64,000 bases of DNA from Pararhodobacter marinus. GTDB taxonomy: Bacteria > Pseudomonadota > Alphaproteobacteria > Rhodobacterales > Rhodobacteraceae. Each line of letters starts with the position of its first letter. Position 1 is the stretch's first letter. Below, piece by piece: positions 37,329 through 47,576 of this stretch. The DNA lies in contig NZ_QEYD01000006.1 of NCBI RefSeq assembly GCF_003122215.1, positions 62,001-126,000 on the forward strand, read 5' to 3'. The notes below the pieces were generated by a model. That model was not told the DNA's origin. It saw nothing but the letters and a program-made list of their open reading frames with translations, and made no database searches. The translations under genes were made by a program, and so were the position numbers.

Positions 37329-37735
37329 GGCGATAACGGCTGAGTCGCCGCGCCGGCGAATCAGCGGCGCTTCCGGGTGTGTAACCTGGGGTTGTGCGGG
37401 CAGGCCGGGGCAGCCGGATGGACGCTGCGTCAAGCGGCCGCGGCACCGCGTCGAAGCGTGAACCTCACGACTTTGTCAACGGCGCTGTGCGCGTTGACTT
37501 TTTCGCCCTCGCCACGCCGCTGAAAAACATGGCGGAATTGCGGCCATGCGTCGCGCGATTTACAGTTTGCCAAGAAGTCGGTGAAGAAATTTACAAAAAA
37601 TCCTATAATAAAAAAAGAGTTATCAAAAAATTGACCGATACGCTAAGATCGATCCCGGAGTGAGGAAGGCCGTATCCGATGCCGCCCGCAGGGTCGGGCA
37701 AGGCGCGGGGCGGCCCCAAGGCAGGAGGATCGCAG
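37329..37735 (+). promoter_or_regulatory. Leader/promoter region of acs, with AT-rich tract
   Basis: About 400 bases without a credible gene. Between 37550 and 37645 the composition becomes strikingly A/T-rich and contains an exact TATAAT at 37604-37609, but no good -35 at 16-18 bases upstream, so an activator-dependent promoter is possible. A small open frame (37394-37663) is not supported by composition or a ribosome-binding site. Confidence 0.5.
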
Positions 37736-39697
37736 ATGTCGGATCTGGCACAGGCGGGCGTGTATCCCGCGTCGGCGGAGTTCACGCAGAAGGCGCATGT
37801 CGACGCCGAGAAGTACGAGGCGATGTACGCCGAGTCGGTCGACAACCCCGAGGCGTTCTGGGCCGAGCACGGCAAGCGGATCGACTGGATCAAGCCCTAT
37901 ACCAAGGTCAAGAACACCACATTCGAGTTCGGCAAGGTCGATATCAAGTGGTTCGAGGACGGCGTGCTGAACGTCGCCCATAACTGCGTCGACCGCCATC
38001 TGGCGACGCGCGGCGACCAGACCGCGATCATTTTCGAACCCGACGATCCTCAGGATCCGGCGCAGCACATCAGCTACAAACAGCTGTCGGAAAACGTGAA
38101 CCGGATGGCCAACGTGCTGCTGTCGCAGGGCGTGATGCGGGGCGACCGCGTGGTGATCTACCTGCCGATGATCCCCGAGGCGGCCTATGCGATGCTGGCC
38201 TGCGCGCGGATCGGCGCCATCCATTCCATCGTCTTCGCGGGCTTTTCGCCCGATGCGCTGGCCAACCGGATCAACGATTGCGGCGCCAAGCTGGTGATCA
38301 CCGCCGACACCGCCCCGCGCGGCGGGCGCCGTACGGCGCTGAAATCGAATACCGACGCGGCCCTGCTGCACTGCTCGGACAAGGTCCGCTGCCTAGTCGT
38401 CAAGCATACCGGCGATCAGACCAGCTGGATCGACGGGCGCGACGTGGACGTCAAGTACCTGATGAAACACGCCTCGCCCGATTGTCCGCCGCGCCCGATG
38501 AACGCCGAGGATCCGCTGTTCATCCTGTATACCTCGGGCTCGACCGGCAAGCCGAAGGGCGTCGTGCATTCCTCGGGCGGGTATCTGGTCTATGCGGCGA
38601 TGACGCATGAGTTGACCTTCGACTACCACGAGGGCGACGTGTTCTGGTGCACCGCCGATGTGGGCTGGGTCACGGGGCACAGCTATATCATCTATGGCCC
38701 CCTCGCGAACGGCGCGACGACGCTGATGTTCGAAGGCGTGCCGACCTATCCCGATGCAGGCCGCTTCTGGGCCGTGTGCGAAAAGCACAAAGTCAACCAG
38801 TTCTACACCGCCCCCACCGCCATTCGTGCACTGATGGGGCAGGGGAGCGAATGGGTCGAGAAATACGACCTGTCGTCGCTGAAACTTCTGGGCTCGGTCG
38901 GCGAGCCGATCAACCCCGAAGCGTGGAACTGGTACAACACGCATGTCGGCAAGGGGAATTGCCCGATCGTCGACACGTTCTGGCAGACCGAAACCGGCGG
39001 CCACATGCTGACCCCGCTGCCGGGCGCCATTCCGGCGAAGCCCGGCTCGGCCACCAAGCCTTTCTTCGGGGTGAAGCCCGTGGTTCTGGACCCGACCAGC
39101 GCCGAGGAGCAGAAGGACACCAAGGCCGAGGGCGTGCTGTGCATCGCCGATAGCTGGCCGGGCCAGATGCGCACCGTCTGGGGCGATCACGAGCGTTTCC
39201 AGGAGACGTATTTCAGCCAGTACAAGGGCTATTACTTCACCGGCGACGGCTGCCAGCGCGACGAGGACGGCTATTACTGGATCACCGGGCGCGTGGATGA
39301 CGTGATCAACGTCTCGGGCCACCGGATGGGCACGGCAGAAGTCGAAAGCGCGCTGGTGGCGCATGCCAAGGTCGCAGAGGCCGCGGTGGTGGGCTATCCG
39401 CACCCGGTCAAGGGGCAGGGCATCTACGCCTATGTCACGCTCATGAACGACATCGAGCCGTCGGAGGATCTGCGCAAGGAACTGGTGAAATGGGTCCGCA
39501 CCGAGATCGGGCCGATTGCCTCGCCCGACCTGATCCAGTGGGCGCCGGGCCTGCCGAAAACCCGCTCGGGCAAGATCATGCGCCGCATCCTGCGCAAGAT
39601 CGCCGAGGACGATTTCGGCGCGCTGGGCGATACCTCGACGCTGGCCGACCCGTCGGTGGTCGATGACCTGATCGCCAACCGCATGAACAAGAGCTGA
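37736..39697 (+). CDS. acs: Acetyl-CoA synthetase
   Basis: Acs activates acetate to acetyl-CoA through acetyl-AMP, releasing AMP and pyrophosphate. The 653-residue protein is full length for AMP-forming acetyl-CoA synthetase. The P-loop-like motif is [18 protein letters not shown]. The hinge region includes [20 protein letters not shown], and Lys613 in TRSGKIMRR is the residue that protein acetylation normally silences. The ATG at 37736 has GGAGGATCGCAG upstream. adk follows after 14 bases and the acetate-type symporter genes follow that, making an acetate-use unit. Confidence 0.96.
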
Positions 39698-40392: not shown

Positions 40393-40494
40393 CCGCCGGC
40401 TTCCCCGCCCGCAAGCCGGGGGAGCGGAGGGACATTGACAGGCGGGCATCCCGTGGCGGGGTGCCGGCAGGAGGAAAAACCGGGAGGACAAACA

Positions 40495-40752
40495 ATGTCT
40501 GACAAATCGGCCAGTGCCTACTGGGCGGCGAATATCAGGCTCATCACCATTTGCCTGGTGATCTGGGCCGTCGCCTCTTTCGGGCTCGGAATTCTTTTGC
40601 GCCCGCTTCTTTCGGGCATCCCCGTCGGGGGCACGGATCTGGGCTTCTGGTTCGCCCAGCAGGGTTCGATCCTGACATTCCTGGTTCTGATCTTCTTCTA
40701 TGCCGCGCGCATGAACAAGATCGACCGGGAATTCGGCGTCGACGAGCAGTAA
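40495..40752 (+). CDS. DUF4212 small subunit of sodium/solute symporter
   Basis: An 85-residue membrane protein with two predicted helices (LITICLVIWAVASFGLGILL; FWFAQQGSILTFLVLIFFYA) and a charged C-terminal tail, RMNKIDREFGVDEQ. It is the DUF4212 / symporter small-subunit family, always encoded directly before a large sodium:solute symporter, as here (15 bases). It probably forms a complex with that protein. Start at ATG 40495 after GGGAGGACAAACA. Confidence 0.93.
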   Translation: MSDKSASAYWAANIRLITICLVIWAVASFGLGILLRPLLSGIPVGGTDLGFWFAQQGSILTFLVLIFFYAARMNKIDREFGVDEQ

Positions 40753-40767: not shown

Positions 40768-42552
40768 ATGGATCAGTTCACTCTCAACCTGATCGTGGTG
40801 GGGCTGTCTTTCGCCCTCTACATCGGGATCGCGATCTGGGCCCGTGCCGGGTCCACGTCGGAATTCTACGCCGCCAACCGGGGCGTGCACCCGGTTCTCA
40901 ACGGCATGGCGACCGCAGCCGACTGGATGTCGGCGGCCTCGTTCATCTCGATGGCCGGGATCATCGCCTTCGTGGGCTATGACAACTCGACCTACCTGAT
41001 GGGCTGGACCGGCGGCTACGTGCTGCTGGCGCTGCTGCTCGCGCCCTATCTGCGCAAGTTCGGCCGCTTCACTGTGCCCGATTTCATCGGCGACCGCTTC
41101 TACAGCCAGACCGCCCGTATCGTGGCCGTCATCGCGCTGCTGGTCATCTCGATCACCTACGTGATCGGCCAGATGGCGGGCGCGGGCGTCGCGTTCTCGC
41201 GCTTCCTCGAAGTCAGCAGCTCGACGGGTCTGTGGATCGCCTCGGCGGTGGTGTTCTGCTACGCGGTTCTGGGCGGCATGAAGGGCATCACCTATACCCA
41301 GGTGGCCCAGTACTGCGTGCTGATCATCGCCTACACGATCCCGGCGATCTTCATCTCGCTGCAGCTGACCGGCACCTTCCTGCCGCAGATCGGCCTGTTC
41401 AGCGCCGACAATTCGGGCACGCCGCTTCTGGCGCATCTGGACGGCCTGCTGACCGATCTGGGCTTCCGCGCCTATACCGAGCATCATTCGAACACGCTGG
41501 ACATGGTTCTGTTCACGCTGGCGTTGATGATCGGGACCGCCGGTCTGCCGCACGTCATCATCCGCTTCTTCACCGTGCCGAAAGTGTCGGATGCCCGCGC
41601 CTCGGCCGGGTGGGCGCTGGTGTTCATCGCGCTGCTCTACACCGTGGCTCCGGCCGTGGGGGCGATGGCGCGCTACAACATCACCACCCAGATGTGGCCC
41701 GAAGGCGTGACCGGCGAGGCGGTGTCGCTGGAGACCATCCAGACCGACGAGCAGTACAACTGGATGCTTAACTGGCAGACCACCGGCCTGCTGGGCTGGG
41801 AAGACAAGAACGGCGACGGCCGGATCCAGTACTACAACGATGCCAGCGCCGACATGCAGGCCATCGCCGCCGAGCGGGGCTGGAACGGCAACGAGCTGAC
41901 CAACTTCAACCGCGACATCCTCGTGCTGGCCAACCCGGAAATCGCCGGTCTGCCGGGCTGGGTGATCGCGCTGATCGCGGCGGGTGGTCTGGCGGCCGCT
42001 CTGTCGACGGCGGCGGGTCTGCTGCTGGCGATCTCGTCGGCGGTGTCGCATGACCTCATCAAGTCGGTGCTCAATCCGGGCATCAGCGAGAAGGGCGAAA
42101 TGCTGGCCGCGCGGATCTCGATGGCGGTGGCCATCCTGATCGCCACGCTTCTGGGTCTGAACCCTCCGGGCTTCGCGGCCCAGGTGGTTGCCATCGCCTT
42201 CGGTCTGGCGGCGGCCTCGCTGTTCCCGACGATCATGATGGGGATCTTCTCGAAGACCATGAACTCGACCGGTGCGGTCGCGGGCATGCTCGTCGGGCTG
42301 ATCGTCGAGATGGTCTACATCTTCACCTATGTGGGCTGGTTCTTCATTCCCGGCACCAACATGCTGCCGAACACCGCCGATAACTGGCTGTTCGGTATCC
42401 AGCCGGCCTCGTTCGGTGTGGTCGCCGCGATCCTGAACTTCATCGTGGCCTATGTCGTGCTTGCCATGACCAAGCCCGCCCCGGCCGAGATCCAGGATCT
42501 GGTGGAATCGATCCGCGTGCCGCGCGGCGCCGGTGTGGCCCAGTCGCACTGA
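40768..42552 (+). CDS. Sodium:solute symporter, large subunit (acetate-permease-like)
   Basis: A 594-residue inner-membrane transporter of the solute:sodium symporter family (VC_2705 / ActP-like group) with about 13 membrane helices. Early signature: STSEFYAANRGVHPVLNGMA then TAADWMSAASFISMAGIIAF. A later conserved run is AAGGLAAALSTAAGLLLAIS. An inserted hydrophilic region around residues 310-385 (EDKNGDGRIQYYNDASADMQ) is typical of this subgroup. Its neighbours acs and adk point to acetate or a similar short carboxylate as substrate, which is inference. The stop codon lies within a 14-bp tandem repeat. Confidence 0.92.
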   Translation: MDQFTLNLIVVGLSFALYIGIAIWARAGSTSEFYAANRGVHPVLNGMATAADWMSAASFISMAGIIAFVGYDNSTYLMGWTGGYVLLALLLAPYLRKFGRFTVPDFIGDRFYSQTARIVAVIALLVISITYVIGQMAGAGVAFSRFLEVSSSTGLWIASAVVFCYAVLGGMKGITYTQVAQYCVLIIAYTIPAIFISLQLTGTFLPQIGLFSADNSGTPLLAHLDGLLTDLGFRAYTEHHSNTLDMVLFTLALMIGTAGLPHVIIRFFTVPKVSDARASAGWALVFIALLYTVAPAVGAMARYNITTQMWPEGVTGEAVSLETIQTDEQYNWMLNWQTTGLLGWEDKNGDGRIQYYNDASADMQAIAAERGWNGNELTNFNRDILVLANPEIAGLPGWVIALIAAGGLAAALSTAAGLLLAISSAVSHDLIKSVLNPGISEKGEMLAARISMAVAILIATLLGLNPPGFAAQVVAIAFGLAAASLFPTIMMGIFSKTMNSTGAVAGMLVGLIVEMVYIFTYVGWFFIPGTNMLPNTADNWLFGIQPASFGVVAAILNFIVAYVVLAMTKPAPAEIQDLVESIRVPRGAGVAQSH

Positions 42553-42689: not shown

Positions 42690-44513
42690 ATGGAACCGCA
42701 GATCGAAACGATCATCGCTTTCCTCGAAACGGTGCATCCCTATGACAGCCTGCCGCGCAACGACCTGGTGCGAGTCGCCACGTCCTTCGGCCGCAGGGAA
42801 TACCGCGCGGGCGATCGCATCTACGAAGCCGGAGAGCCGCTGAAAGGGCTCTACCTGATCAAGCGCGGCTCGGTCGAGGTGACGGACCGCAACGGCGTGC
42901 TGGTCTCGATCCTGGGCCCGCGCAACACCTTCGGCGAGCGTGGCCTCATGCGCGACGGTCTGGCGGTGACGACAGCGGCGGCGGTCGAGCCGTCGGTCGT
43001 CCTGCTTCTGCCCGAGGCCGAGTGGCGCACCCTGATCGCGGGCGTTCCCGCCTTCGAGCGGTTCTTCAACCGCTCGCGCCCGGCCGAGACGCGGGGCACG
43101 GACCTGTCGACGCTCAAGGTCTCGGACCTGATGGCGCGCACGCCGGTGACGCTGCCGCCCGATGCCAGCGTGACCGAGGCCGCGCAGATCATGCGCGACC
43201 GGCATATCAGCTCGATCGCGGTCACGCGGGGCGAGGCGCTGAAAGGGCTCATCACCACCCGCGATCTGGCCGAGCGGGTCCTCGCCGCCGAACTGCCCGG
43301 CTCGACCTTGCTGGAACAGGTCATGACGCCCGACCCGCTGACGCTGACGCCCGATGCGCTGGGCTCGGACATCCTGCACACGATGCTGGAACGTGGCATC
43401 GGCCATGTGCCGGTGGTGCAGGACGGCAAGCTCAAGGGGATCATCACCCAGACCGACCTGACGCGGTTTCAGGCGGTCAGCTCGGCGCTGCTGGTGCGCG
43501 ATGTCGCCGCCTGCGAAACGCCCGAGGAAATGGCCGAGGTGACGGCGCGCATCCCGCGGCTGCTGCAACAGCTGGTCGCGGCGCATAACGCGCATGAAGT
43601 CGTCACGCGGCTGATCACCGATATCGCCGACACGGTGACCCGCCGGCTTCTGAAACTGGCCGAGGCGCAGCTGGGCCCGGCGCCGGTGCCCTATCTGTGG
43701 CTCGCCTGCGGCAGCCAGGGGCGGCAGGAGCAGACGGGCGTGTCGGATCAGGACAATTGCCTGATCCTTGACGATGCGGTCACGCCCGATGACCGGACGT
43801 ATTTCAAGGCGCTGGCGCGTTTCGTCAGCGACGGTCTCAATACGGCGGGCTATGTCTATTGCCCGGGCGACATGATGGCCACGGCCGAGCGCTGGTGCCA
43901 GCCGAAAGCGGTCTGGCGGCGCTATTTCCGCGGCTGGATCGACACCCCCAGCCCCGAGGCGCAGATGCTCGCCTCGGTGATGTTCGACCTGCGGCCCATC
44001 GGCGGCACCACGGCGCTGTTTCGCGAATTGCAGGAGGAAACGCTGGCGCTGGCGTCGAAGAACTCGATCTTCGTCGCGCATATGATCGCCAATTCGCTCA
44101 AGCATCACCCGCCTCTGGGATTGCTGCGGGGTTTTGCCACGATCCGCTCGGGCGAATACAAGAACCATATCGACATGAAGCATAACGGCGTCGTGCCGGT
44201 GGCCGATATCGCGCGGGTCTACGCGCTGAGGGGCGAGCTGACCGAGGTCAATACCCGCGCACGGATCGAAGCGGCCGAGGATGCGGGCGTGGTGTCCGTC
44301 TCGGGCGCGCGCGACCTGATCGAGGCCTATGACCTGATCGCCTCGCTGCGGCTGGAAAATCAGGCGGCGCTGGTCAAGGCCGGCCGGAAGCCCGACAATT
44401 ACCTTGCGCCCTCGGACCTGTCCGATTTCGAGCGCAGCCATCTGCGCGACGCCTTCGTCGTCGTGCGTACCATGCAATCGGCCCTGAGCCAGCGAAGCGG
44501 TGTGCTGGGGTGA
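42690..44513 (+). CDS. cNMP-binding/CBS/DUF294 nucleotidyltransferase-like protein
   Basis: A 607-residue cytosolic signalling protein. Domains in order: cyclic-nucleotide-binding-like (residues about 10-125, with YRAGDRIYEAGEPLKGLYLI and GERGLMRDG); a CBS pair (about 145-262, VSDLMARTPVTLPPDASVTE and LLEQVMTPDPLTLTPDAL); a DUF294 nucleotidyltransferase domain (about 335, LWLACGSQGRQEQTGVSDQD with G-S-x-G-R-x-E/Q and an Asp); and the DUF294 C-terminal substrate domain. Such proteins accompany ActP-like symporters in many proteobacteria and may tune carbon uptake to nucleotide state, but the reaction is unknown. It starts the second half of the acetate block. Confidence 0.88.
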   Translation: MEPQIETIIAFLETVHPYDSLPRNDLVRVATSFGRREYRAGDRIYEAGEPLKGLYLIKRGSVEVTDRNGVLVSILGPRNTFGERGLMRDGLAVTTAAAVEPSVVLLLPEAEWRTLIAGVPAFERFFNRSRPAETRGTDLSTLKVSDLMARTPVTLPPDASVTEAAQIMRDRHISSIAVTRGEALKGLITTRDLAERVLAAELPGSTLLEQVMTPDPLTLTPDALGSDILHTMLERGIGHVPVVQDGKLKGIITQTDLTRFQAVSSALLVRDVAACETPEEMAEVTARIPRLLQQLVAAHNAHEVVTRLITDIADTVTRRLLKLAEAQLGPAPVPYLWLACGSQGRQEQTGVSDQDNCLILDDAVTPDDRTYFKALARFVSDGLNTAGYVYCPGDMMATAERWCQPKAVWRRYFRGWIDTPSPEAQMLASVMFDLRPIGGTTALFRELQEETLALASKNSIFVAHMIANSLKHHPPLGLLRGFATIRSGEYKNHIDMKHNGVVPVADIARVYALRGELTEVNTRARIEAAEDAGVVSVSGARDLIEAYDLIASLRLENQAALVKAGRKPDNYLAPSDLSDFERSHLRDAFVVVRTMQSALSQRSGVLG

Positions 44514-44529: not shown

Positions 44530-45084
44530 ATGCTGATCGACCTGATGGGCGCGCTGGCGACCGGGTTCGGCCTGATGGGGCTGGTTCTGATGCTGAACCG
44601 GCTGGTTCTGCGCGGCGCGCTGGGGCGGTGGATCTATCCCGCCAGCGTGGCGGCGGGGATGATCCTGTACACGGTCTGGGCCGAATACACCTGGGCCGAC
44701 CGCACCATCGACGCGCTGCCGCAGCTTGCGCTGGTGTCCGAGGACGGCGACGCGGTGATCTACCGGCCCTGGACCTATGTCTGGCCGCAGACGACCCGCA
44801 TGGTGGCGCTGGACCTGTCGCAGACCCGCACCCATCCCCAGCAGCCGGGGCTGGTGATGACGCGGATCGTGCTGATCGGGCGCTGGCAGCCGATGCGGGC
44901 GGTGACGGTGGTCTACGACTGCCCCGCCCATCGCCGCGCCGATCTGCGCGAGGGGGTGGCGTTGAACGCCGACGGAACGCTGGAGGGGGCGGACTGGACG
45001 GCGCTGGAGCAAGGGGACGCGGCGTTGCGCGCCGCCTGTTCCGCCGTGGAGGAGGAAGTCGATGAGCAAGGCAGCGGAGCCTAA
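44530..45084 (+). CDS. Conserved hypothetical membrane protein
   Basis: A 184-residue protein with one or two N-terminal membrane helices (LMGALATGFGLMGLVLMLNR; WIYPASVAAGMILYTVW) and a soluble domain of unknown fold (TYVWPQTTRMVALDLSQTRT; AVTVVYDCPAHRRADLREG). The ATG at 44530 has AGGGAG seven bases upstream. It follows the DUF294 gene by 16 bases and overlaps the response regulator start by 23 bases, so it is part of the same operon. I do not recognise a family function. Confidence 0.75.
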   Translation: MLIDLMGALATGFGLMGLVLMLNRLVLRGALGRWIYPASVAAGMILYTVWAEYTWADRTIDALPQLALVSEDGDAVIYRPWTYVWPQTTRMVALDLSQTRTHPQQPGLVMTRIVLIGRWQPMRAVTVVYDCPAHRRADLREGVALNADGTLEGADWTALEQGDAALRAACSAVEEEVDEQGSGA

Positions 45085-45496
45085 GCGGATCCTCGTCGTC
45101 GAGGACGAGGACAATATCGCCGTCGCGCTGGATTACCTGATGACGCGCGAAGGCTACAGCCAGCAACGCATCGCCACCGGCGCCGGCGCCGTCGCGCTGA
45201 TCCGCGAGACCCGGCCCGACCTGGTGCTTCTGGACGTGATGTTGCCCGAGGTCTCGGGCTACGAGATCTGCCAGGACGTGCGCATGGACCCTTCGCTCAA
45301 CGAGGTGAAGATCCTGATGATGACCGCGCGCGGCTCGGCGATGGAGCGGCGCAAGGGGCTGGCGATGGGGGCCGATGGCTTCATCTCGAAACCCTTCGAG
45401 CTGAAGGCCCTGCGCGCCGAGGTGCGGCGCATCCTGGCCGGCGAGGCACCCGGCGATCTGGATGACGGCGCGCGCGGCGAGGCGCGCCATGCTTGA
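45062..45496 (+). CDS. Receiver-only response regulator
   Basis: A 144-residue single-domain CheY-like protein. The acidic pocket is VVEDEDN (about residues 12-18), the phosphoacceptor Asp is in LVLLDVMLPEVSGYEI (about residue 58), the conserved Thr in ILMMTARGSAMERR and the Lys in FISKPFELKALRAEV. There is no output domain. Its stop overlaps the next gene's start in ATGCTTGA, suggesting translational coupling to the PAS/exonuclease protein. The partner kinase is unknown, because the downstream protein lacks a phosphorylatable His. Confidence 0.92.
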   Translation: MSKAAEPKRILVVEDEDNIAVALDYLMTREGYSQQRIATGAGAVALIRETRPDLVLLDVMLPEVSGYEICQDVRMDPSLNEVKILMMTARGSAMERRKGLAMGADGFISKPFELKALRAEVRRILAGEAPGDLDDGARGEARHA

Positions 45497-47576
45497 GCGG
45501 CTGAGCCTGCGGCTGCGGATCCTGTTGTTCTTCGCGCTGCTCGCGCTCGGCGCGGTGGCGCTGGTCGCGGCGGGCCTGTGGATTGCCGCGCGGGACACCG
45601 GCCTTGCCGCGCTGGCGCCGGAAGTGGTGCAGGGCGCGCTGGTGGCAGGCTTCGGCATGGTCGGGCTGGTCGTCTGGGTCTGGTTCCTGTTCGACAGCCA
45701 TGTCGCGCGGGCGATCGACGGGCTGGCCGCGGCGATCCGCGCGCGGGCGCATGCCGGGATCGAGCGGGACCTTGCCGCCGAGTCCCGCGCCGCGCGCTAT
45801 CTGGGCGATCTGGCCCCCGCCGCCGAGGCGGTGACGCGCTCGCTGGTCGAGACGCGCAGCGCGCTGGCCGAAAGCGTCGCGCGCGAAACCACGCGGCTCG
45901 CGGCCGAGAAGTCGCGGCTGGAGACGTTGCTGGCCGATGTGCCCGTCGCGGTGCTGCTGTGCTCGGCCGAGCACCAGCTGGCGTTCTACAACGGGCAGGC
46001 GGTGGACATCCTGGGCGGCGGCACCGCGCCGGGGTTGGACCGCAACCTGCTGGATTACCTGCGCGAGGGACCGATCCGCCACGCTTACGAGCGGCTGGCA
46101 GGGGCGGGGGATCCGGATGCGGCGTCGGATCTTCTATGCGCCACGGCGTCGGGCGGGCGGCTTCTGGCCGGGCGGATGCGGGTGTTGCGGCGGCGCGAAG
46201 AGGGCGTCGCGCCCGGCTATGTGCTTACCCTGCGCGATGTCACCGCCGATATCGCCGCGCATACCAGCCGCGAGGCCCTGCTGAGCGAGATTTTCGAGCG
46301 CGTGCGCCGCCCGGCCGCCAACCTGCAGACCGTGATCGGGGTGATGGCCGAGCTGGAGACCGGGGCGGGTGTTCCCGACCTGTCCGCGGCCCTGCGCTCC
46401 GAGGTCGAGGCGCTGACGCGGGCGATCACGCAGCTGGGTACGCGGTACGACGCGATCCAGTCGGACTGGCGCCCCTTGGTCAACACCCGCTCGGGCGATC
46501 TGCTCGACGGGCTGGCGGCGCGGTTCCAGGCGCATGGGCTGGGGCTGGAAACCCGGAGCCTCGACCTGATCCTGCAGGTCGACGGGTTCGAGATCATCGC
46601 CTTCTGGACATGGCTCGCCGATCACATCGCGGCCGAAGGGCTGGCGCGGCGGTTCCGCATCGAGATCGAGGAAGAGGACGGGCCGGGCGCGGTGATGCGG
46701 CTGTGCTGGCAGGGCGCGCCCCTGTCGGTGGGGCTGCTCGACGGCTGGCTTCAGGGCTCGCTGGGGCGCGACACGGGCGAGCTGACGGCACGCGCGGTGT
46801 TGCAGACCCATGGCACCGAGGCCTGGCCCGAGAGCCATGGCGGGGGGCCGTCGGTTGTGATGCCGATCCGCTCGGTGCGGCGGGCGGGGCGGCGGGTGGC
46901 CCCGATCGCGCGCAAGGTGGTCTACGATTTCGAACTGCTGGGCAAGGCGCGCAACGCGGCGGTGGCCGAGACGCGGCTTGAGGATCTGACCTTCGTCGTT
47001 TTCGATACCGAGACCACGGGCCTGTCGCCGTCGAGCGACAGCGTCGTGCAGATCGCGGCGGTCCGGCTGGTGAACGGGCGGCGGCTGGAAAACGAGGTCT
47101 TCGATACGCTGGTCGATCCGAAGCGCCCGATCCCGCCCGGCTCGACCGATGTGCATGGCATCACCGACAGCATGGTGGTGGGCGCGCCCGACATTGCCGA
47201 GGCGGGGCGGCAGTTTCACAAATTCGCCGAGGGTGCGGTGCTGATCGCGCATAACGCGCCCTTCGACATGGAGTTCCTGCGCCGGCAGGAAGCGGCGATC
47301 GGCAAGGCTTTCGATCACCCGATCCTGGACACGGTGCTGCTGTCGGCGGTGATCTTCGGCCAGCTGGAACAGCATTCGCTCGATGCGCTGACCGCGCGGC
47401 TGGGGATCACCATCCCCGACGAGGCGCGCCATACCGCTTTGGGCGACGCGGTGGCGACGGCAGAAGCCTTCCTGCGGCTGGTGCCGATGCTGAAGGCGCG
47501 CGGGCTGTCGACCTTCGGGCAGGTCGTGGCCGAGATGCGCAAGCACGGGCGATTGCTGAAGGATCTGAACGGGTAG
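45489..47576 (+). CDS. Membrane PAS/pseudo-kinase protein fused to a DEDDh 3'-5' exonuclease
   Basis: A 695-residue fusion. Two membrane helices lie at residues about 10-32 and 48-72. A coiled region and PAS-like domain follow (about 145-240: LLADVPVAVLLCSAEHQLAF). Next is a region that looks like a histidine-kinase dimerisation helix (about 266: SEIFERVRRPAANLQTVIGV), but the expected phosphoacceptor His is Glu and no N or G boxes are visible. The C-terminal 190 residues are a PolC/epsilon-type exonuclease with all catalytic residues: FVVFDTETTGLSPSSD, LIAHNAPFDMEFL and RHTALGDAVATAEAFL. The substrate, RNA or DNA, is unknown. It is translationally coupled to the response regulator. Confidence 0.85.
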   Translation: MLERLSLRLRILLFFALLALGAVALVAAGLWIAARDTGLAALAPEVVQGALVAGFGMVGLVVWVWFLFDSHVARAIDGLAAAIRARAHAGIERDLAAESRAARYLGDLAPAAEAVTRSLVETRSALAESVARETTRLAAEKSRLETLLADVPVAVLLCSAEHQLAFYNGQAVDILGGGTAPGLDRNLLDYLREGPIRHAYERLAGAGDPDAASDLLCATASGGRLLAGRMRVLRRREEGVAPGYVLTLRDVTADIAAHTSREALLSEIFERVRRPAANLQTVIGVMAELETGAGVPDLSAALRSEVEALTRAITQLGTRYDAIQSDWRPLVNTRSGDLLDGLAARFQAHGLGLETRSLDLILQVDGFEIIAFWTWLADHIAAEGLARRFRIEIEEEDGPGAVMRLCWQGAPLSVGLLDGWLQGSLGRDTGELTARAVLQTHGTEAWPESHGGGPSVVMPIRSVRRAGRRVAPIARKVVYDFELLGKARNAAVAETRLEDLTFVVFDTETTGLSPSSDSVVQIAAVRLVNGRRLENEVFDTLVDPKRPIPPGSTDVHGITDSMVVGAPDIAEAGRQFHKFAEGAVLIAHNAPFDMEFLRRQEAAIGKAFDHPILDTVLLSAVIFGQLEQHSLDALTARLGITIPDEARHTALGDAVATAEAFLRLVPMLKARGLSTFGQVVAEMRKHGRLLKDLNG

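Follow-up and report, generated by a model that had tools for sequence, protein, structure and literature searches.

Within a 64,000-nucleotide stretch of Pararhodobacter marinus DNA (contig NZ_QEYD01000006.1, positions 62,001 to 126,000; hereafter the window), a 695-residue protein joins a membrane pseudo-histidine kinase to a DEDDh 3'-5' exonuclease, and its gene overlaps that of a single-domain receiver by ATGCTTGA. A first-pass annotation had called this an unusual arrangement; it is not an isolated one but a widely conserved family, present in the window's family, in its class and elsewhere in its phylum. The receiver is key to the fusion, because it comes and goes with the dimerization and histidine-phosphotransfer (DHp) hairpin of the pseudokinase, and the two have been lost together several times. 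The best overall explanation, which we hold with moderate confidence, is that the pseudokinase reads the receiver and gates its own exonuclease, in what is apparently a conserved variant of pseudokinase-receiver signalling with a nuclease output. The features at the core of this arrangement are:

45062..45496, + strand: single-domain receiver, 144 aa, with D58, T88 and K110 (PF00072, E=4.5e-25)
45489..47576, + strand: membrane pseudo-histidine kinase-DEDDh exonuclease fusion, 695 aa (open reading frame, Pfam, AlphaFold model)
45507..45695, + strand: pair of transmembrane helices, residues 7-69, joined by a very short loop (hydropathy, model)
45936..46253, + strand: PAS domain, residues about 150-255 (weak PAS_4 match, fold in the model)
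46242..46469, + strand: DHp hairpin, helices 252-288 and 298-327 (model; motif FDRxRRPAANLQ across close homologues)
46296..46298, + strand: codon of Glu270, at the phosphoacceptor His position
46305..46307, + strand: codon of Arg273, three residues after the His position
46479..46874, + strand: degenerate HATPase, or catalytic and ATP-binding (CA), domain without ATP-binding boxes, residues 331-462 (models, Foldseek, motif counts)
46986..47498, + strand: DEDDh 3'-5' exonuclease domain of the PolC/DnaQ type (PF00929, PDB matches, catalytic residues)

That a membrane DEDDh exonuclease is fused to a sensor had been proposed in the first-pass annotation, and the observation is confirmed by the open reading frame, by hydropathy, by the AlphaFold model and by a PF00929 match far beyond chance (E=1.8e-37, residues 503-661). 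The first AlphaFold model, built from 35 sequences, has a predicted local distance difference test (pLDDT) score of 74, and the second, built from 79 more diverse sequences, a mean pLDDT of 91.3 and a predicted template-modelling score (pTM) of 0.82 over the whole chain. In the model, the chain runs from the transmembrane (TM) helices through a HAMP-like linker and coiled coil (to residue 149), the PAS domain, the DHp hairpin, the CA domain and a further linker to the exonuclease, which begins at residue 500; 'HAMP-like' and the topology names are our reading of the predicted structure. Helices are modelled at residues 7-37 and 44-89, with the membrane helices falling in 7-37 and 44-69, and hydropathy, scored in 19-residue windows, peaks in those that begin near residues 11 and 50 (the top window beyond residue 80 scores 1.33). 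The PAS domain is weak by sequence (PAS_4, E=0.0098) and clear in the model, where its blockwise pLDDT is 86-97.

Foldseek aligned 340-473 columns of the second model to the sensor kinases WalK 9a5d (4.4e-15), 4gcz, 4i5s, ThkA-TrrA 3a0r and NifL 9qq6; DivL 4q20 was among the listed matches of the first-model search only. The target-normalised template-modelling scores (TM-scores) of these long alignments are low (0.2-0.37), as they should be if the domains are oriented differently. Pfam HATPase_c has 29 matches in the window's genome and the CA domain of the fusion is not among them; the domain is therefore recognisable by its fold and not by that profile. Because residues ~331-462 have a HATPase fold, the protein carries a whole pseudo-histidine kinase. 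The annotation had described a kinase-like helix only and missed the degenerate HATPase fold that the predicted structure of the sensor part contains, with its ATP-box motifs lost. A helix-only kinase remnant is ruled out by the AlphaFold models and the Foldseek matches to sensor kinases. Also ruled out is a sequencing frameshift or assembly artefact, which the annotation had named as another possible source of the fusion, as the matched stretch is a single open frame in 80/80 close homologues (loci picked by likeness to the full form). One draft locus (L150, in genome G406) has the fusion split between two frames; this draft is fragmented, and its fusion, SSF and DUF294 genes each lie in two frames, probably a matter of assembly quality.

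The fusion keeps the PAS-DHp-CA fold of a sensor histidine kinase and lacks the phosphoacceptor His and the N, G1 and G2 boxes. We compared 156 full-length proteins (132 from close homologues and the family, 11 from the class and 13 from the wider phylum) with 14 active kinases taken from the fetched clusters. The Glu270 that the annotation had placed at the phosphoacceptor position is there, and across the set this position holds Asp in 113 proteins, Glu in 35 (D/E in 148/156) and another residue in 8; a retained His, for which homologues were surveyed, was found in 0/156. Among 81 close sequences, 77 have Asp and 4 Glu. The H-box pattern occurs in 0/156 full-length proteins vs 14/14 active kinases, the G1 pattern DxGxG in 2/156 vs 14/14, the G2 pattern GxG[LIMF]G in 0/156 vs 14/14, and a loose N-box pattern, NA[hydrophobic], in 9/156 vs 12/14, which bears out the absence of ATP boxes as motifs. 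Judged by these residues, the fusion is a pseudokinase and should not autophosphorylate. Arg273 is conserved in 150/151 receiver-linked proteins and in 2/11 of the CA-keeping forms without an intact DHp and receiver. The substituted acceptor and conserved docking residues of a DivL-like reader are thus represented by D/E at 270 and R at 273.

Proteins of the DHp type that lack kinase activity can dephosphorylate receivers, and the pseudokinase might accordingly be a receiver phosphatase, forming the control arm of an SLC5-type kinase pathway. We consider this very unlikely. The HisKA phosphatase motif needs T/N at position +4, and this position is Arg274 in 80/81 close homologues of the fusion. 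Moreover DivL, the nearest analogue, is described as being without phosphatase activity (passages of PMC4211667).

The partner of the pseudokinase is, as the annotation had stated, a receiver-only gene overlapping the fusion gene: a Pfam scan finds a complete receiver domain and no output domain. Among 152 receivers, D58 and K110 are each present in 152/152 and T or S at position 88 in 151/152, residues by which the receiver is predicted to be phosphorylatable. It lies beside the fusion in 78/80 close-homologue loci by pattern search and in 80/80 by profile, and the two genes overlap in 57 of those 78 pattern-search loci, 46 of them by 8 bases, as in the window.

Fusion matches were found in 138/295 genomes of the window's family (136 loci read) and in 31/385 genomes of its class (27 loci read beyond the family ones); two weak family matches (G450, G627) and a class match whose locus position is missing (G189) stand outside the counts. 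In the family, the receiver is present at 49 of 52 loci with DHp and CA intact, at 1 of 10 with a CA and an incomplete DHp, and at 0 of 71 encoding a short TM-PAS-exonuclease form; the remaining loci, two at a contig edge (L182, L199) and one split (L150), were kept out of the pooled test. In the class, it is present at 9 of 11 intact loci and at 0 of 16 without a DHp. Pooled, an adjacent receiver accompanies 58/63 DHp-intact forms vs 1/97 in which the DHp is lacking or incomplete (Fisher test, 1.9e-36, relatedness ignored), and the fusion therefore has the co-conserved single-domain receiver partner that marks a DivL-like reader. A non-redundant, realigned set that includes the close homologues, and that scores L150, L182, L199 and exonuclease-only rows as short, gives 133/138 vs 1/102, that one being the split gene L150. 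The CA-keeping forms with an incomplete DHp lack the receiver in 9/10 cases at first count and in 11/11 after realignment, the counts differing because realignment moved L251 and L156 to another class. A 129-row tree built on the alignment columns of DUF294, TM and exonuclease needs 6 changes of the DHp and 7 of the receiver; on a smaller-alignment tree without DUF294 (140 rows), there are 8 DHp and 9 receiver changes.

The short forms invite a simpler account, in which helix movements driven by the signal let the membrane PAS sensor gate the exonuclease by itself, with the receiver as an accessory: all 71 receiver-free short-form loci of the family keep TM-PAS-exonuclease, and PAS-only control may suffice there. 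We regard this account as unlikely, since loci that retain the DHp almost always retain the receiver too (58/63) and the two genes overlap in 57/78 loci.

Several results nevertheless weigh against a receiver-read pseudokinase. On the tree that includes DUF294, only three independent pairs fall on well-supported branches and significance is unreachable (on average 2.8 of the three change the same way and 0 the opposite way; median sign test p 0.25), and the tree without DUF294 yields a single such pair. Mutual information between receiver and pseudokinase places 0 of the top 50 pairs in the DHp (effective number of sequences 48), leaving docking unsupported by covariation. The existence of short forms suggests a use for the exonuclease even in the absence of a receiver. 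The SLC5-type sensor histidine kinase considered below as phosphate donor is absent from 7/21 outside-family clusters; in the window's family it is encoded in 262/295 genomes, usually beside its own receiver, and is therefore not specific to this system. Five DHp-intact proteins, finally, have no receiver next to them that reaches the threshold used, and two of these exceptions, G512 and G912, remain unexplained. Among the others, L245 has lost Arg273, and G079 has its receiver 4.6 kb off, beside an SLC5-type kinase.

Two of these loci have a distinctive layout. In G079 (L277:4708-11828), the fusion is followed by DUF294, the SLC5-type kinase and a single-domain receiver on the other strand, all parts forming one rearranged locus; in G327, a divergent receiver-like open reading frame occupies the usual receiver slot (L286:9259-9915, - strand). 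We also looked for an unlinked receiver orthologue in 24 genomes, two of which were positive controls scoring 299 and 253 bits. In the 22 without an adjacent receiver (5 DHp-intact, 7 CA-only, 10 short), none was found beyond that of G079; the best matches scored 77-120 bits, and the one at 119.5 bits is the G079 receiver, in the same locus as the fusion.

The exonuclease domain has both the family score and the D-E-D-H-D residues of a DEDDh exonuclease. Its PDB matches are PolC 2p1j (4.4e-29), 9qpc and 2gui, and the window protein has D506, E508, D593, H648 and D653 intact. Across the alignment, D506, E508 and D593 are present in 258/258 rows, and H648 and D653 are missing only from 3 rows with a gap at that place; the short forms, which have neither DHp nor CA nor receiver, keep the first three in 91/91 and the last two in 90/91, with one gap. 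With a cutoff of E=0.001, RNase_T has three matches in the window's genome, one of them the fusion. Exonuclease activity is, for this family, predicted, and the domain could in principle be an exonuclease in sequence only, used as a nucleic-acid-binding or structural module; on acetate or succinate, P. putida deleted for the RNase_T gene pp_0353 showed no growth defect, whereas on pyruvate it had one (PMC9927547). With catalytic residues that are missing just in three gapped rows, we find such a module scarcely credible.

The same residues in the receiver-free forms show that the nuclease can persist without receiver control, which fits a further alternative: the receiver would act back on other kinases, such as the SLC5-type one, with the pseudokinase a membrane sink or scaffold setting the amount of free receiver and the exonuclease constitutive. 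Single-domain receivers can indeed act on kinases, as DivK does on DivJ (PMC4211667). A sink, however, would have no need of a nuclease on the same chain, and conservation of the fusion in the family, in the class and in other parts of the phylum makes us judge this alternative improbable.

If the receiver-read pseudokinase does gate the exonuclease, the best candidate phosphate donor is an SLC5-type sensor histidine kinase, because it is clustered with the fusion outside the family and widespread in family genomes. The outside-family set comprises 21 clusters (every full-form class locus, 11 in number, plus 10 of the roughly 32 other full-form loci from the phylum), and such a kinase lies in 14 of them; in L281 just its start is on the contig. 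Its frame of roughly 840-1040 aa contains HisKA and HATPase_c, with an N-terminal part that remotely resembles SLC5, and its gene lies directly 3' of the fusion, on the same strand, in 12 of the 14 clusters. In six kinases scanned by Pfam, HisKA and HATPase_c were found in 6/6 and SSF at E < 0.001 in 2/6; we use the label 'SLC5-type' because of these two SSF-matching kinases, the SSF match of the kinase of the window's genome (27.1 bits in the genome search) and the mutual similarity of the kinases. In the window's family, the kinase is encoded elsewhere in the genome, whether the fusion is present or not, and a restriction of the kinase to full forms is unsupported, since it occurs in 262/295 genomes. 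Ten family genomes were compared, those of the 24 above whose kinase was among the matches listed; in 9/10 a receiver paralogue is found at 263-377 bp from the kinase, and the kinase-linked receiver frames of G022, G389, G463, G464, G582 and G607, at 128-156 aa, have a size that fits a single domain.

In the window's genome, the kinase lies at L276:1866-4607 on the - strand, unlinked to the fusion locus (C24 of this genome), with a receiver paralogue about 340 bp away. In relatives, the kinase-linked paralogue seems to be without an output domain, unlike CrbS/CrbR with its LuxR-type regulator.

Upstream of the receiver and the fusion, the window contains a series of genes on the same strand:

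37679..39697, + strand: acetyl-CoA synthetase gene (PF00501, PF13193, PF16177)
40435..40752, + strand: DUF4212 small symporter subunit (PF13937, 6e-33; TIGR03647, 2e-32)
40768..42552, + strand: SLC5/SSF symporter of the VC_2705 family (PF00474; TIGR03648, 2.8e-243)
42690..44513, + strand: cNMP-CBS-DUF294 nucleotidyltransferase-like protein, a conserved operon member (PF03445, PF10335, PF00571, PF00027)
44530..45084, + strand: 184-aa protein (ORF184) between the DUF294 and receiver genes

An adenylate kinase gene belongs to the same + strand series. The acetate-uptake setting assigned by the annotation holds, with the acetyl-CoA synthetase, DUF4212 and VC_2705-family symporter genes all in the window. 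The 71 short-form loci keep the operon neighbours (ORF184 in 71, DUF294 in 71, SSF in 69) and have the receiver in 0, and among the full-form family loci ORF184 and the DUF294 gene are each present in 50/52. Neither Pfam nor NCBIfam matches ORF184 up to E=1; the protein occurs in 131/133 family loci counted, receiver present or not. In L107-L113, shorter RNase_T proteins are matched by the profile, and the DUF294 gene adjoins the exonuclease in 5/7 of these loci.

From these components, we can outline how the machine may work. The SLC5-type kinase, which many relatives encode within the cluster and this genome encodes at another place, would most likely phosphorylate the receiver, and the DHp hairpin would be the docking site, reading the phosphorylation state of the receiver as DivL reads DivK~P. 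Receiver docking, together with sensing by the PAS domain and membrane helices, would then change the DHp-CA conformation and gate the exonuclease, in either direction of control. The outcome would be that uptake of acetate or related carboxylates is tied to turnover, at the membrane, of RNA (more likely) or DNA. The full pathway, in which an SLC5-type kinase senses a carboxylate and signals through an outputless receiver and a DivL-like pseudokinase to an exonuclease switch, so that nutrient uptake directly controls RNA/DNA decay, is one we advance tentatively, its chances falling a little short of even. On the strength of P. putida pp_0353 and DivL taken together, receiver-gated RNA turnover in carboxylate use appears the most likely role. 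The annotation had suggested that carbon state could be linked to RNA or DNA turnover; with the help of pp_0353 we would infer the same, and the annotation's interpretation overall is partly supported.

Most two-component pathways have transcription, second messengers or motility as their output. If our explanation is true, the output of a two-component pathway would here be a nuclease, read through a dead kinase; RNA or DNA breakdown may then be under the direct control of a nutrient signal. The exonuclease and DUF294 genes found alongside acetate symporters would also gain a function, and a further case would be added of a pseudokinase reading a single-domain receiver. The full, DHp-less and short forms would amount to a natural experiment on the joint loss of signalling modules.

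The named relatives among the closest fusion matches are mainly Rhodobacteraceae. In the open-licence PMC literature we found no paper on this fusion, which is weak evidence of absence, since broad queries covered top-ranked matches only; the term 'exonuclease' was not found in passages of PMC5715377. The exonuclease resembles PolC and DnaQ epsilon, with identities of 31-38% across the domain in the majority of Foldseek alignments, all five catalytic residues and, for DnaQ epsilon, a TM-score (target) of up to 0.85; unlike these, the fusion is not part of a polymerase and is membrane-tethered and joined to a pseudokinase.

The pp_0353-pp_0354 operon of P. putida likewise encodes an RNase_T protein and a CBS protein, and lies beside actP in some Pseudomonas (PMC9927547). 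Pp_0353 is a target of MxtR/ErdR, an SLC5-kinase system; it has no effect on growth on acetate or succinate and is needed for normal growth on pyruvate, and its authors speculate on mRNA degradation (PMC9927547). By description, not by sequence, the two systems differ in that passages of that paper describe no fused sensor and a control that is transcriptional. The SLC5/STAC kinases CrbS/CrbR (MxtR/ErdR) and RpuS/RpuR are also SLC5-type sensors tied to acetate or pyruvate use, and a similar kinase accompanies the fusion in 14/21 outside-family clusters; their regulators are LuxR-type transcription factors (PMC9100948), whereas the receiver here is outputless.

The closest parallel is with DivL-DivK of Caulobacter, which shares the PAS, DHp and CA fold, a substituted phosphoacceptor and a stand-alone receiver partner. 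DivL is described as having neither kinase nor phosphatase activity and as a dead kinase that reads its receiver through the normal docking face, with Arg553 required for DivK~P binding (passages of PMC4211667). Arg553 and Arg273 of the fusion both stand at acceptor position +3, an equivalence by motif position, not by structural alignment. DivL has Tyr at the acceptor position vs Asp/Glu in the fusion family, and where the output of DivL is another kinase (CckA), the predicted output of the fusion is its own fused exonuclease.

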